DNA of 6,490 bases from Synergistaceae bacterium. GTDB taxonomy: Bacteria > Synergistota > Synergistia > Synergistales > Aminobacteriaceae. Position 1 is the first letter of the stretch, and every line of letters begins with the position of its first letter. Location of the stretch: NCBI GenBank assembly GCA_017427625.1, contig JAFRSL010000175.1:1-6490 (forward strand), given 5' to 3'. This document shows, piece by piece, positions 1,477-6,194 of this stretch. The position numbers and the translations under genes are program-made. The notes below the pieces were generated by a model. That model ran no database searches. It was not told where the DNA came from and saw nothing but the letters and a program-made list of their open reading frames with translations.

Positions 1477-1554
1477 AGATTATTTTGTCAGAAGTAAGCG
1501 CAAATTTAGTGTATCACTTCACAAAGAGCTTTGATTAAACGCCGCCGCACTCTC

Positions 1555-1584
1555 GTGACTTCTTTTCTCTTTTTGTGTTATACT
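1555..1584 (+). promoter_or_regulatory. Promoter inside the inserted element
   Basis: The -10 hexamer TATACT (1579-1584) is preceded by TG at the extended -10 position (1576-1577). GTGACT (1555-1560) is a 4-of-6 -35 match with an 18-bp spacer. A start near 1591 would open the RNA directly at the CGTAGAT arm of a stem, consistent with a promoter for a structured RNA rather than for a protein gene. Confidence 0.5.
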
Positions 1585-1667
1585 CTTTTTACGTAGATGT
1601 CAGACGTAGAGATATAGACTTGCGAAAGTAGGCACTAACCGCGCAATCTACGAAGAGTAACACAAAA
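1571..1667 (+). repeat. Long imperfect inverted repeat within the element
   Basis: TTTTGTGTTA (1571-1580), CTCTT (1583-1587) and CGTAGAT (1592-1598) are complementary, in order, to TAACACAAAA (1658-1667), AAGAG (1653-1657) and ATCTACG (1646-1652). That makes 22 pairs with two small bulges (TA and TTTA) on the left arm. The left arm contains the -10 region of the internal promoter, so a read-through RNA could fold the full stem, whereas an RNA starting near 1591 would keep only the last 7 pairs. Confidence 0.75.
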
Positions 1668-1874
1668 TCCGTACTGGCGACAGTAAGGTTGAGCATGAGG
1701 GCAAAAGTTCCCTCGTGTTTAGGAGAAGCACCCGCACCTGTATCTGTGTACTAGTCCATTTGCGGTTATCAGAGTTTCGGTTCTGTGTACTGAGATTAGA
1801 CCGAATATGCAGACAGGCAGTCCGGCCTATTAAGACGGCTGGAAGCACTTGACTTTAGTCGTGTGAGGCTTCAC
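1591..1874 (+). ncRNA. Candidate structured RNA of the inserted element, possibly omega/guide-RNA-like
   Basis: From the predicted start near 1591 to the element end, the DNA lacks a believable protein frame but forms a chain of helices. These are CGTAGAT (1592-1598) with ATCTACG (1646-1652); inside it ACTT-GCGA-AAGT (1618-1629); TACTG-GCGA-CAGTA (1672-1685); CATGAGGG (1694-1701) with CCCTCGTG (1710-1717); CGGT (1763-1766) with ACCG (1800-1803); CAG/CCG (1818-1824) with CGG/CTG (1836-1841); and the right-end hairpin 1846-1865. Two stems carry GCGA (GNRA) tetraloops. TnpB-linked IS605 elements make RNAs that end at the element right end and use the adjoining host DNA as guide. By analogy the guide here would be ACTGTACTGTCAATTC from AbiGi. 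TnpB is absent from the window, so this function is inferred. Confidence 0.45.
1743..1791 (+). repeat. 10-bp direct repeat TCTGTGTACT
   Basis: TCTGTGTACT occurs at 1743-1752 and again at 1782-1791, inside the inserted element and 39 bp apart. The second copy lies in the loop side of the CGGT/ACCG stem. Its role is unknown; it may reflect an internal duplication in the RNA region or a chance repeat. Confidence 0.5.
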
Positions 1875-2339
1875 ACTGTACTGTCAATTCTGGAGCATGG
1901 ATTTTTTCCGGTAACGTCAAAAGAAGATACGTCAATCGTACGTCCTGCTCATGAGGGTAAGCCTGAAAGATTTATAGGCATACCTATGGTTTGCTTTACC
2001 GACATTCCTATTCAATTATCATCAGAACACCGCGCTGAATATGGCTGTTACGGTCTCGGATTAAGCAAAGAATGGGCCAAATCTAACAAGATAGGACCTG
2101 TATTCTACATGATTAATGGCTCCGCTTCTTGGGAAGCATATAATCACATGCAGGCCGTTGTTGTCGATATGATGCAAGAGGCTAAATGTTCACAGAGCAC
2201 TAAAGATAAAGTGGTTAGTTCATTGATTGAGTTAGCAGGTTACATAAAACCTTACGCTGAAGAAGGGCGTGAAAAAACTTTTTATGACGAGCGCGAGTGG
2301 CGTTACGTCCCACCGTTTCAAGATATTCCGGATTATTGA

Positions 2340-2557
2340 TTGAGTACGTCTAGAAAAATACCCCCAAGACGTTTTTGGCGTTCATGGGGCATATCTGGGG
2401 AGCTTCACTAGTTACGGTACGCACTTCTTCTGTGCCTCGAAGTTCCCCCGTCTCATTCTCAAGGCGAGGGAACGTATCGTATGCGGCTGTGTGATTCCCT
2501 GCCTCAGCGAACAATGAATGATGGTGTGGTAATATTTTGTTTAGGAGATGAAAATTC
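2340..2557. other. Structured non-coding region after the truncated AbiGi gene
   Basis: This stretch of just over 200 bp has no convincing gene. It starts at a second TTGAT (2336-2340), which also contains the AbiGi stop, and includes AGCTTCAC (2401-2408), like the right end of the first insertion (8 of 10 bases match over 2399-2408 against 1865-1874). Visible helices are CCCCA (2362-2366)/TGGGG (2385-2389); GCAC (2421-2424)/GTGC (2432-2435); and AGGC plus AGGGAA (2462-2472)/TTCCCT plus GCCT (2495-2504). GTTCCC (2442-2447) can pair instead with GGGAAC (2468-2473). It could be the remnant of a second small element, a leader of the kinase-like gene, or both. Confidence 0.45.
2354..2389 (-). terminator. 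Possible intrinsic terminator on the minus strand
   Basis: Read on the minus strand, CCCCA (2389-2385) pairs with TGGGG (2366-2362), with an inner ACG/CGT helix (2381-2379 with 2371-2369), and is followed by GTATTTTTC (T run 2358-2354). The stem is interrupted and no minus-strand gene is seen directly upstream. It may end an unannotated antisense RNA or read-through from the right. Confidence 0.3.
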
Positions 2558-3163
2558 ATGAGCAGAATAATCACTATAGGCCGCGAATTTGGTTCAGGAG
2601 GCCGCGAACTCGCAAGGTACATCGCTGAAATCCTCAGCATCGCATACTATGACCGCGAAATCATCACAGAAATCTCAAAGCGCACATCGCTCTCCGAGAA
2701 GTACATCCAAAACGTCGCAGAGCACAAACCCGTCATACCCTTCCCGATTCACACAGGGCGGACATTCTGGGCGGTAATCCCCGATTACGGTCAGGACGTT
2801 CAGAAGGAACAGCACGACATTATCCGAGAGATTGCCGGAAAATCTGACTGCCTTATCGTCGGAAGAGGCGCGGATTACATTCTCAGGGACGAGAAGCCTT
2901 ACAGGATTTTCGTTTACTCCGATGATGAGTCGAAATTGAGACGCTGCCGGGAGAACAGCTCAAACGATTACGCGAAGGGCGAGGAAATGACCGACAAGGA
3001 GCTTTCAAAGAGGATCGAGCAGATCAACAAGGCCAGGGCGGATTACTACGAGTTCTACACGGGGCAGAAGTGGGGCGGAAAGTCGAACTATGATTTATGC
3101 GTCAACACTTCAAGGGTTACGGACTTGAGGAAAATCGCTCAGGCTATAGCCTCAATGTGTTAG
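2558..3163 (+). CDS. Cytidylate kinase-like family protein
   Basis: This 201-residue protein has an N-terminal P-loop variant GREFGSGGRE (residues 8-17), used for binding the triphosphate of ATP, as in the Cytidylate_kin_2 family (PF13189). Further family blocks are YYDREII (about 30-36), LIVGRGADYILRD (99-111), an Arg-containing lid (RIEQINKARADYYEFYTGQKWG, roughly 150-175) and a final YDLCVNTSR. Length matches the family (about 200). By homology to NMP kinases it should transfer phosphate to a small nucleotide-like substrate in the cytoplasm, but the substrate of this family is not established and it should not be taken as the housekeeping Cmk. ATG 2558 has AGGAG (2543-2547) 10 nt upstream. 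No good promoter is seen close by; the structured leader upstream may matter. A bidirectional terminator follows. Confidence 0.88.
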   Translation: MSRIITIGREFGSGGRELARYIAEILSIAYYDREIITEISKRTSLSEKYIQNVAEHKPVIPFPIHTGRTFWAVIPDYGQDVQKEQHDIIREIAGKSDCLIVGRGADYILRDEKPYRIFVYSDDESKLRRCRENSSNDYAKGEEMTDKELSKRIEQINKARADYYEFYTGQKWGGKSNYDLCVNTSRVTDLRKIAQAIASMC

Positions 3164-3579: not shown

Positions 3580-4866
3580 ATGCACAATTATCTTGACGTT
3601 CTCAAGAAGATAGAAGAGACAGGAGCAAAGGCTTGGCTTGTCGGCGATACAGTCCGAATGATGCAGATGGGTATTCAGCCGGAAACTATAACCCTCGCAA
3701 TCGACTCCGATGACATGTACGCTGTATCTCAGGCAATTGGTACAGGAACTGTTGACGCAAGAGGCCCGTTCCCAGCCCTTAGAGGGGAGCTTCTTGGCAC
3801 TAGCTTCCGCGCTTTCGGCCTAAGAGGAGCAACGATTGAGGACGATCTGGCCTGCCGCGATTTGAGCATTGAGGCAATCGCAATCAGGTCAGACGGAGGA
3901 ATCGTTGACCCCTTCAACGGAAGGCTCGACATTCGCAACAAAGTCATTCGTCTAACGGGCGATAACGTGGAGCTTATTGAGGCTGACCCCTTGAGGATTC
4001 TCCGTATGCTGAGATTCGCGGCGGAGTTCGAGATGGATATTTTCTGGAAAACTGAGACAGACGTCAGAAAGTTCCTTGAGCTTCACGCTGACAGAATGAA
4101 GGACATTCCAACCGAGAGATGGGGGCGCGAAATCCTGAAAGGTATCAGGCGCAGACCGTGCAGGTTCATTGAGCTTTGCGACGATTACGACCTCCTTCCT
4201 TTCTTCCTGAAGGAGCTTGAAGATTCGAACCGCACGCCCGACGGAAAGGGAAGAACGTTCTATGATCATGTCCTTGATATTCTCAGGGTCATTGAGGAGG
4301 GTCTCGATGTCAACAAGATTATCCAGAATGATGCGTTCGTACTCGCCGGACTCTTCGGGCATATCGGCACAAAGAGGCTTGACCTCAGCGACCGCGACAA
4401 GTATACCGACCGTATAATCACGGAATACCTTACGCGCTGGAATATCCCATCGGAGACGATCGAGAACGTAATCGCGATCATCAACAACTATCAACGTTTC
4501 TACAGCCCTGTAACGGAAGATGTATTCTGCCGTGAAGTCCTGAATTATTCGCGTGATGCTGTGGTTGTGGCGCTGCAGTTTGCGAGGTGCGCGGCAATTT
4601 CTGAGGGCTTCTTTGAGGAATACAGGGAGGTACTCGACAACAACCGCTGGAATCTCAAGCAGGTATTGCGTCGTTTCAACACCGTCGAGCTTCAGACACA
4701 AGGCTCATCGCGTTACATGACAGGGCGCGAGGTAATGAGTCTCCTCCAAATGAAGCCGGGAAAGAGGATAGGCGAACTCCTTGACGGCCTCGATTTTGCG
4801 GTAGGCACGGGGAAAGTTGGCTCACGTTCAGCGGCGGAAGCGTGGCTTAAGTCTCAGGTCGCATGA
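3580..4866 (+). CDS. tRNA nucleotidyltransferase/poly(A) polymerase-family protein with lost catalytic residues
   Basis: The 428-residue protein keeps the layout of class II CCA-adding enzymes: N-terminal nucleotidyltransferase head, RNA-binding middle, HD-like region, and a C-terminal block (GREVMSLLQMKPGKRIGELLDGL). The neck/body motifs are good: CRDLSIEAIAI (92-102, like RRDFTINAIA), DPF (110-112) and EADPLRILRMLRF (134-146). The active site is not. The usual LVGGxVRDxxLG...DxDL reads LVGDTVRMMQMG...TITL (20-39), so GG is GD, RD is RM, and both metal-binding Asp residues are Thr (36 and 38). The HD signature LLHDIGK reads LFGHIGTK (258-265), losing both ligands. It is therefore probably not a working CCA-adding enzyme or phosphohydrolase; an RNA-binding or regulatory role is an inference. 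A separate active enzyme should exist in the genome. The next gene, mnmE, overlaps by 4 bp (ATGA). Confidence 0.88.
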   Translation: MHNYLDVLKKIEETGAKAWLVGDTVRMMQMGIQPETITLAIDSDDMYAVSQAIGTGTVDARGPFPALRGELLGTSFRAFGLRGATIEDDLACRDLSIEAIAIRSDGGIVDPFNGRLDIRNKVIRLTGDNVELIEADPLRILRMLRFAAEFEMDIFWKTETDVRKFLELHADRMKDIPTERWGREILKGIRRRPCRFIELCDDYDLLPFFLKELEDSNRTPDGKGRTFYDHVLDILRVIEEGLDVNKIIQNDAFVLAGLFGHIGTKRLDLSDRDKYTDRIITEYLTRWNIPSETIENVIAIINNYQRFYSPVTEDVFCREVLNYSRDAVVVALQFARCAAISEGFFEEYREVLDNNRWNLKQVLRRFNTVELQTQGSSRYMTGREVMSLLQMKPGKRIGELLDGLDFAVGTGKVGSRSAAEAWLKSQVA

Positions 4867-6194
4867 ATGACACGATAGCGGCAATCTCGACGGCATTGGG
4901 CGAAGGAGCAATCGCAATAGTGAGAATCTCCGGGTCTGATGCCGTTTCTGTTGCGCGGAAATTACTGGCTCGTCAGGATTTCCCCGAACATGGCCGAATG
5001 TACCTGACGACTCTTCTTGATGACGGTGAAGTTGTTGACCGAGTAATGTGCGTGAACTTCAAGAGTCCCAAGAGCTACACGGGCGAGGACATCGTAGAAA
5101 TTCACACGCACGGCGGAATTTTGGCGGCTCAGACATGCCTTGAGCTTGCGTTGAGGAACGGCGCGAGGATTGCGGAGGCTGGCGAATTTACCCGTCGCGC
5201 ATTCGTGAACGGCCATATAGATCTCTCGCAGGCTGAAGGTGTACTGTCAGCGATAACTTCACGGAGCAACGAGGCATTGAGGGCGGCGGCGAGGACTTTG
5301 ACGGGCGAATTGTCGCGGGCTGTCATGAAAATTCATGATGACATTTTGGAGCTTCAAGGAAAGATTGAGATTCAGATAGATTTTCCGGAGGGCGAGACTT
5401 TGAGCGGTCTTGATGTTTCGGGTGAAATTGTGCCGATAATCCGCGAACTTGAGGCGTTAATCCCGCGATGTTCCGCCGGAATGCTATTGAGTCATGGAGT
5501 GAGAGCCGTGATTGCCGGCCGTCCGAATGCAGGAAAATCGTCGCTGATGAATGCCCTCGTCGGCAAAAAACGAGCAATAGTTACGGAAATTCCCGGAACA
5601 ACCCGTGACATCATCGAGGAGAGTGTCATAATATCCGGCGTACCCGTGAGGCTTTCTGACACAGCGGGGCTTAGGGGCACTGATGACGTTATAGAGGCTG
5701 AGGGAGTTAGACTTGCGATTGATGCCATGAACGAGGCAGATATATGTGTCTATGTTGCTGATGGCTCGTGTGAATTGACGGCTGAGGATTGGGAATACAT
5801 TCGCGCTCTCGAGGATCGTAACGCGATAATAGCGGTGAACAAGTCAGACCTCCCGGAAAACATTGGCGAGATTGATTCGTCGCTCGCAAAAATTCATGTG
5901 TCAGCAAAAACGGGCGCGGGCATTGAGGATTTGAGGCGTTCGATATACAGCATGGCCATGAAGGATTGCGCTGTCAATGCGGGGCTTAATGTGTCGGCTT
6001 TCCAGCTTGAGGAACTTCGTGGGGCATTGCGCGATTTGAAGGAAGGGGAAGAATCCGCCGTAATTGGGGCTGGCGAGGACGTTACGGCGGGGCTTTTGGG
6101 GTCAGCGAGAGTGAGTCTGCTCCGAGTCTTGGGAGTCGATGCGGGTGATGAGCTTCTCGACTCTATGTTCAGCCGCTTCTGCGTAGGGAAGTGA
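4863..6194 (+). CDS. mnmE: tRNA uridine-5-carboxymethylaminomethyl(34) modification GTPase MnmE (TrmE)
   Basis: MnmE is the GTPase that, with MnmG, adds the aminomethyl-type group to C5 of wobble uridine 34 in several tRNAs, using methylene-tetrahydrofolate. The 443-residue length is close to the usual 450-460. The N-terminal folate-binding domain starts DTIAAISTALGEGAIAIVRISG and includes SYTGEDIVEIHTHGG (about 73-86) and EAGEFTRRAFVNGHIDLSQAE (about 105-125). The inserted G domain has G1 GRPNAGKSS (219-227), G2 TTRD (246-249), G3 DTAG (266-269), G4 NKSD (326-329) and G5 SAK (347-349). The chain ends in FCVGK (439-443), the conserved FC(I/V)GK tail with the catalytically important Cys. ATG 4863 overlaps the upstream stop (ATGA), with no strong SD, so translation is probably coupled to the CCA-like gene. 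The last 93 bp also code on the opposite strand. Confidence 0.98.
   Translation: MNDTIAAISTALGEGAIAIVRISGSDAVSVARKLLARQDFPEHGRMYLTTLLDDGEVVDRVMCVNFKSPKSYTGEDIVEIHTHGGILAAQTCLELALRNGARIAEAGEFTRRAFVNGHIDLSQAEGVLSAITSRSNEALRAAARTLTGELSRAVMKIHDDILELQGKIEIQIDFPEGETLSGLDVSGEIVPIIRELEALIPRCSAGMLLSHGVRAVIAGRPNAGKSSLMNALVGKKRAIVTEIPGTTRDIIEESVIISGVPVRLSDTAGLRGTDDVIEAEGVRLAIDAMNEADICVYVADGSCELTAEDWEYIRALEDRNAIIAVNKSDLPENIGEIDSSLAKIHVSAKTGAGIEDLRRSIYSMAMKDCAVNAGLNVSAFQLEELRGALRDLKEGEESAVIGAGEDVTAGLLGSARVSLLRVLGVDAGDELLDSMFSRFCVGK

Follow-up and report, generated by a model that had tools for sequence, protein, structure and literature searches.

The window, by which we mean the whole 6,490-nt stretch of DNA analyzed here, carries an AbiGi-family gene, predicted to act in phage defense, that is split into two pieces by a 339-bp insert. 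The split gene lies between a membrane transport protein gene on the reverse strand and genes for proteins similar to cytidylate kinase, tRNA nucleotidyltransferase and MnmE (Table 1). The genome to which the window belongs (1.9 Mb in 304 contigs) is 80.8% complete, so absences from it carry little weight. The cytidylate kinase-like gene was found in 40 of 43 genomes of the genus, and a Mem_trans gene within ~1.5 kb upstream of it was present in none of the 11 loci examined from these 40 genomes.

Table 1. Features of the AbiGi locus, with positions in the window
Feature	Position	Strand	Evidence
Membrane transport protein gene (PF03547)	458–1399	–	protein profile search
AbiGi 5′ piece, TTG start, 17 codons	1485–1535	+	reading frame and homologue alignment
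TTGAT left flank (target), predicted TAM	1531–1535	+	sequence; analogy to ISDra2 (excerpts of PMC8612924)
Non-autonomous IS200/IS605-type element, 339 bp, decayed copy of a mini-element	1536–1874	+	DNA matches, end alignments
Left end, reduced to the 5′ arm of the subterminal hairpin by loss of loop and 3′ arm	1536–1562	+	alignment A3, fold
Extended –10 TGTTATACT, predicted promoter	1576–1584	+	motif conservation in A3
Leader of the mini-element, small hairpin at ~1615–1637	1585–1663	+	fold of A6, columns 47–69, 6 copies
Predicted omegaRNA (reRNA) scaffold, 211 nt	1664–1874	+	covariation; 61 of the 62 pairs in the consensus intact
Right end with hairpin and terminal TTCAC (1870–1874)	1842–1874	+	end comparison, fold
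Predicted guide segment, ~16–20 nt of AbiGi coding sequence	1875–1894	+	inferred from the ISDra2 reRNA (excerpts of PMC8612924)
AbiGi 3′ piece, 154 codons	1875–2336	+	profile matches and homologue alignment; early TGA at 2337
Sequence replacing the AbiGi 3′ end	2337–2520	.	no match in 42 other genomes of the genus, no AbiGi C-terminus
Cytidylate kinase-like gene	2558–3163		protein profile search
tRNA nucleotidyltransferase-like gene	3580–4866		protein profile search
MnmE-like gene	4863–6194		protein profile search

Upstream of the insert, positions 1485–1535 encode MSEVSANLVYHFTKSFD, immediately followed by a TAA codon (1536–1538), and the AbiGi frame resumes at 1875 as TVLSILEHGFFP, in the same frame as the 5′ piece. 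The open reading frame containing the right piece (1863–2336) matches PF10899 (E 2.4e-23; 83.5 bits, gathering cut-off 22.4), where the piece covers positions 26–144 of 185, as well as the PADLOC AbiGi model (E 2.7e-26). With 37.6 bits, it remains below the 300 bits required by the NCBIfam equivalog phage_res_AbiGI. Two homologues, P0002 and P0003, show 69 and 65% identity to the right piece and are unbroken across the junction (HFTKQLD-TVLSILENGFYP and HFTSEPN-TVLSILKNGFYP). Relative to the two window pieces, which entered the alignment as separate, unjoined rows, both homologues pass the insertion point without gain or loss of a codon, just as an earlier note on this DNA had proposed for the joined pieces.

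The gene is also short at its 3′ end. AbiGi terminates at a TGA (2337) after PPFQDIPDY, where P0003 continues for a further 72 residues, and the frame minus the insert amounts to ~171 residues as compared to 244–246 in the homologues. The three forward frames, followed as far as position 2632, do not encode the missing ~72 C-terminal residues, and a tblastn search of the window with the C-terminal 75 residues from seven homologues gave a best E value of 0.74. Excision of the insert would therefore not yield a full-length AbiGi. For the sequence that replaces the end of the gene, blast of 2337–2557 against 111 loci returned nothing except the window itself, a test of the same stretch as a second mobile element gave no match in 42 other genomes of the genus, and the reverse open reading frame covering it (2350–2640) has no Pfam match. 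The idea that 2337–2557 is a tnpB remnant was unsupported.

Among 61 genomes, AbiGi relatives were found in the genome of the window only; a wider collection of genome contigs contains four (25–37% identity), and viral contigs contain none. With AbiGi of lactococcal AbiG (abiGi/abiGii; PF10899), as described in the available excerpts of PMC3985639, the gene shares the PF10899 match of its right piece. Unlike the lactococcal gene, it is split and C-terminally short, and the eight window proteins scanned include no AbiGii. A search with AbiGii_2 had no match in the genome of the window; the control genomes likewise gave zero matches.

The insert is a precise, protein-free insertion of the IS200/IS605 type between two AbiGi codons, and the homologue alignment shows no target duplication at the junction. 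It directly follows TTGAT, which according to the excerpts of PMC8612924 is both target and TAM of ISDra2, and it ends with a hairpin and TTCAC. Of 26 extracted right ends, 24 carry TTCAC; L010 has a TTCAC end that was extracted one base short, and L008, a decayed copy, ends in TTCA. Folded as single-stranded DNA, the right-end hairpin reaches –4.1 kcal/mol, with 50 of 200 shuffles as good, and is weak by energy alone. Taken together, junction, ends and profiles agree with what the earlier note had read from the DNA, namely that an AbiGi-family gene is interrupted, precisely between codons, by an IS605-type element of the TTGAT class that encodes no protein, with TTGAT on the left and hairpin plus TTCAC on the right.

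Left ends are readable in 16 of 19 loci, nine of them after TTGAT, six after TTGAA and one (G032:C29) after the right end of another element; three loci show no left end. The TTGAA-flanked subgroup comprises the left ends of L041, L040, L028, L135, L061 and L063. Five of these six hairpins read CATT(C/T)TCGCGACTT, and TTGAT copies mostly read CACACTCGTGACTT. The subgroup perhaps represents a natural change of target specificity. At G032:C29 (L144, near 1420–1445), the right end GGCTTCAC abuts the left end, which could mean either two elements or an inserted circle junction.

All eight other left ends in alignment A3 retain both hairpin arms. From the window left end, 43 columns of A3 are gone (40 nt as compared to the copy on C293 of the same genome), which removes the loop and the 3′ arm; the evidence for this deletion comes from a single MAG contig of 6490 bp. 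As single-stranded DNA, the remaining left end folds at –1.3 kcal/mol, with 177 of 200 shuffles as good, as compared to –8.8 to –14.1 kcal/mol for five other left ends and –8.4 kcal/mol for a tnpB-linked one. According to the excerpts of PMC7290912, TnpA of IS200/IS605 elements requires a hairpin at each end. Because half of its left-end hairpin is lost, the insert is likely stuck in place. A search of its genome (81% complete) for tnpA, as suggested in the earlier note, found zero Y1 transposases; the same search was positive in 5 of 14 control genomes.

DNA matches to the insert occur in nine of 61 genomes: its own and eight of 36 others of the genus, with none in 24 genomes of the order. 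Since these matches reach E 5.8e-94 outside the own genome and all fall within the same genus, chance resemblance is excluded, and the further copies that the earlier note had proposed to look for in the genome and its relatives do exist. Within the genome of the window itself, C293 has a TTGAT-flanked left end at its edge, C265 has a right end, and C176 has a decayed copy. The mini-elements occur in multiple copies that share both ends and lack a transposase, insert after a short fixed target and have a relative with Y1 TnpA, as is characteristic of MITEs and PATEs. The window insert lacks the hairpin at one of its two ends and is therefore a decayed copy of such a MITE/PATE-like family, not a mobile member.

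A model of the RNA encoded by these elements has at least 44 matches in at least 10 of 43 genomes of the genus. These counts are lower bounds because, in each genome, scoring under strict filters covered 55 candidates out of several hundred. Typing covered the 30 of these 44 matches that have loci. We defined the mini-type by a left hairpin or its remnant upstream and no tnpB body, and assigned to it the window copy, G025:C15, G001:C24, G007:C316, G017:C236, G063:C15 and G020:C137; G001:C200 is cut within its left hairpin. Six copies are linked to tnpB (G025:C2, G010:C12, G017:C137, G022:C178, G032:C12 and G001:C154), and the remaining typed copies are cut by contig ends or ambiguous. Two autonomous relatives, G007:C47 and G001:C62, have a like left hairpin, tnpA and the start of tnpB, which is cut by the contig ends. 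Their left ends are flanked by TTGAA, not TTGAT, and we found tnpA together with a TTGAT-flanked left end at none of the family loci. Many contigs of G032 and G063 start or stop inside the RNA. Copies are therefore undercounted in MAGs and, since contigs break at repeats, the mini-type clade may have members with tnpB that escaped notice.

The last 211 nt of the insert align with the tnpB-linked copies; in six copies, the same RNA overlaps the 3′ end of tnpB or follows it. Model R1, which includes the window copy, matches this region (1664–1874) at E 1.5e-67. Across 12 copies, both partners change in 24 of 62 pairs, and pairing holds in 97.7% of cells. Neither measure is reached by any of 500 shuffles, and slid controls give at most five both-side pairs, a control that is flattered because 12 of the same sequences had served to build the structure. 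Five measures were compared with shuffles; one of them, further pair types, does not exceed the shuffles, 139 of 500 reaching it with 12 copies and 360 of 500 with 19 copies. In 19 copies, both-side changes affect 28 of 62 pairs. Among the 11 mini or untyped copies, 19 of 62 pairs show such changes, 13 without M_G025a and 10 if G063:C15 is removed as well; the changes in this set could be explained by unseen tnpB-linked relatives.

The terminal helix reads GAAGC-GCTTC in all 11 mini or untyped rows. Among the tnpB-linked copies it reads GAACC-GGTTC in five of six and is broken (GATTC) in one, and two contig-end rows of the tnpB-linked type show one form each. We placed the 19 RNA copies in a midpoint-rooted tree and read from it a branch, supported at 100, that divides the tnpB-linked from most mini or untyped copies. 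Besides the six tnpB-linked copies, their side of the branch holds two of like type that contig ends interrupt (C265 of the window's own genome and G032:C21) and M_G025a, which is nested in this clade with mini-type letters on both sides of its terminal helix. Several inner supports lie between 32 and 75. From this topology, it follows that mini-elements had two or more origins or underwent recombination.

Like an omegaRNA, the RNA is structured and extends from the 3′ end of tnpB through to the right end. On this basis, we predict that the 211-nt RNA is a TnpB omegaRNA (reRNA) that would bind TnpB and guide its TAM-dependent cutting. The reRNA of ISDra2 ends with ~16 nt of flanking DNA (excerpts of PMC8612924), from which the guide segment in Table 1 was deduced. 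Rfam has no match to the window at gathering score, and a 27-mer of the RNA has none in viral contigs.

The motif TGTTA[TCG]A[AC]T precedes the RNA in eight of nine A3 rows, the ninth being without TG. The extended –10 is also present in G063:C15, and TGTTATAAT precedes tnpA in L061. We predict that this motif drives transcription of the RNA. A promoter scan of the region gave two promoter-like sites versus 0.8 in shuffles, a count so near the shuffle expectation that the scan alone proves nothing.

The TnpB family of the genus was investigated with P0122. This protein matches NCBIfam guided_TnpB at E 5.4e-19 and 68.7 bits, below the cut-off of 100, and all of its Pfam matches are below cut-off. 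A single-sequence search of the PDB returned nothing, and a profile of 12 rows identified TnpB 9nzp (E 8.7e-8). D212, E300 and D379 are invariant across these 12 rows and would, by our own assignment, form the RuvC site. Judged by its sequence, P0122 is a diverged guided TnpB. Its family contains at least 6225 relatives at E ≤ 1e-3; among the matches listed, the nearest named relative is P0149 of a Synergistaceae bacterium. Judged by this mobile gene, the host of the window is probably a member of the Synergistaceae. By eye, the first zinc-ribbon CxxC is seemingly absent from P0122, P0123 and P0124 (L045, L047 and L044). Mini copies show short matches to P0122 residues ~389–434, which correspond to the tnpB frame overlapping the RNA. 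The genome of the window yielded 14 matches to the TnpB zinc-ribbon model, some of them partial, and no cognate TnpB body. P0122 matches this genome at a single place, 34 residues on C265 that include a stop, which is no proof of tnpB because the match lies inside the RNA region overlapped by the tnpB frame.

We consider it very likely that the insert has the anatomy of a stranded guide-RNA mini-element, which splits AbiGi 3′ of TTGAT and combines half a left hairpin with the intact fold of a predicted TnpB guide RNA. The break in AbiGi is probably permanent. Junction, repeat family, half-deleted left hairpin, covarying fold, conserved extended –10 and missing AbiGi C-terminus are all present in the DNA; the deletion in the left hairpin, the 3′ shortening of AbiGi and the conserved RNA go beyond the earlier note. 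According to the mechanism that we propose, a Y1 transposase acting in trans would have moved the element to AbiGi while the left end was whole, and a later deletion would have immobilized it. A promoter of the type found before tnpA in a relative would now lie immediately in front of the RNA. A cognate TnpB carrying this RNA, with the first ~16–20 nt of AbiGi after the insert as guide, may cut the empty TTGAT-AbiGi site. Such cutting of the empty allele would favor retention over reversal, as has been proposed for ISDra2 TnpB and its TTGAT-flanked donor joints (Karvelis et al. 2021; excerpts of PMC8612924).

The chances are about even that the same anatomy belongs to an inert fossil, with the RNA as debris in a decaying AbiGi gene and no guide activity. 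Since this denies only the inferred function, it is compatible with the anatomy of a stranded mini-element. The broken left end, the lost 3′ end of AbiGi and a genome in which neither a tnpB body nor tnpA was found are as expected for a fossil, but the RNA in the window keeps 61 of its 62 pairs and the –10 is retained, although one copy cannot separate recent decay from function. A reversible, restorable off state, as put forward in the earlier note, has become very unlikely. On that reading, TnpA in trans would still excise the insert scarlessly and thereby restore AbiGi, in line with the exact insertion at a codon boundary with TTGAT and TTCAC and with Y1 transposase matches in 15 of 43 genomes of the genus. 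However, this switch is unsupported because half of the left hairpin is gone, the search of the own genome found no Y1 transposase, and excision would leave the frame ~72 C-terminal residues short. We give little credence to the view that two unrelated small open reading frames were brought together by an artefact of assembly or recombination: only one MAG contig of 6490 bp carries the locus, but both pieces align frame-exact to single homologues and the transposon ends lie at the exact junction. Least probable is an IStron-like arrangement with self-splicing of the insert from the mRNA and expression of AbiGi, for although an insertion sequence joined with a group I intron is known (PMC4227781), no group I intron was recognized, the window has no Rfam match at gathering score, and 1400–2000 gave up to E 1 only a single weak, unrelated match to the BtsR1 sRNA (19.5 bits, cut-off 66).

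The stranded mini-element shares with ISDra2 and IS605 elements containing TnpB the TTGAT target or predicted TAM and an RNA made of the tnpB 3′ end plus the right end (excerpts of PMC8612924); relatives with tnpA and tnpB are found in the genus. In contrast to ISDra2, the window element is without protein, its left hairpin is broken and its RNA lies behind its own predicted promoter, and the TnpB family of the genus is diverged to below the NCBIfam cut-off. Palindrome-associated transposable elements (PATEs) of Haloquadratum (PMC3119063) and Halanaerobium (PMC7290912) are likewise derived from IS605, encode no protein and retain both ends. The one in Halanaerobium has a similar layout, with 28 nt of left end, the terminal 58 nt of tnpB and a 160-nt right end. 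Here, omegaRNA fold and promoter are conserved across copies, whereas the available excerpts of both PATE papers describe neither. A search of the open-licence literature, by which earlier work is incompletely covered, brought up no description of an omegaRNA in IS605 elements that lack protein genes. A reportedly relevant study is that of Meers et al. 2023. Our analysis adds the conserved promoter and the covarying omegaRNA, both predicted, in protein-free copies; PATEs were already known, and the novelty of guide-only elements is not established.

A further reading, to which we assign a slim chance, is that the mini-elements are guide-RNA-only transposons borrowing TnpB in trans, and that the window copy, immobilized when its left hairpin was lost, now serves as an RNA memory fixed against the uninterrupted allele of AbiGi. 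With the protein genes gone, the promoter would have come to act straight on the omegaRNA, and each insertion would therefore be a free-standing guide gene. If this were true, loaded TnpB would cut incoming uninterrupted AbiGi, and loss of the defense gene would be self-enforcing. 

In the stranded mini-element that we favor, the expected on/off switch becomes its opposite, a copy that is likely unable to leave while its predicted guide RNA is intact. The conclusion "scarless, therefore reversible" needs a check of the left hairpin and of the remaining host gene. A promoter and a conserved omegaRNA in protein-free elements would let TnpB act in trans at many sites, and such action could explain the retention of short IS605 derivatives.
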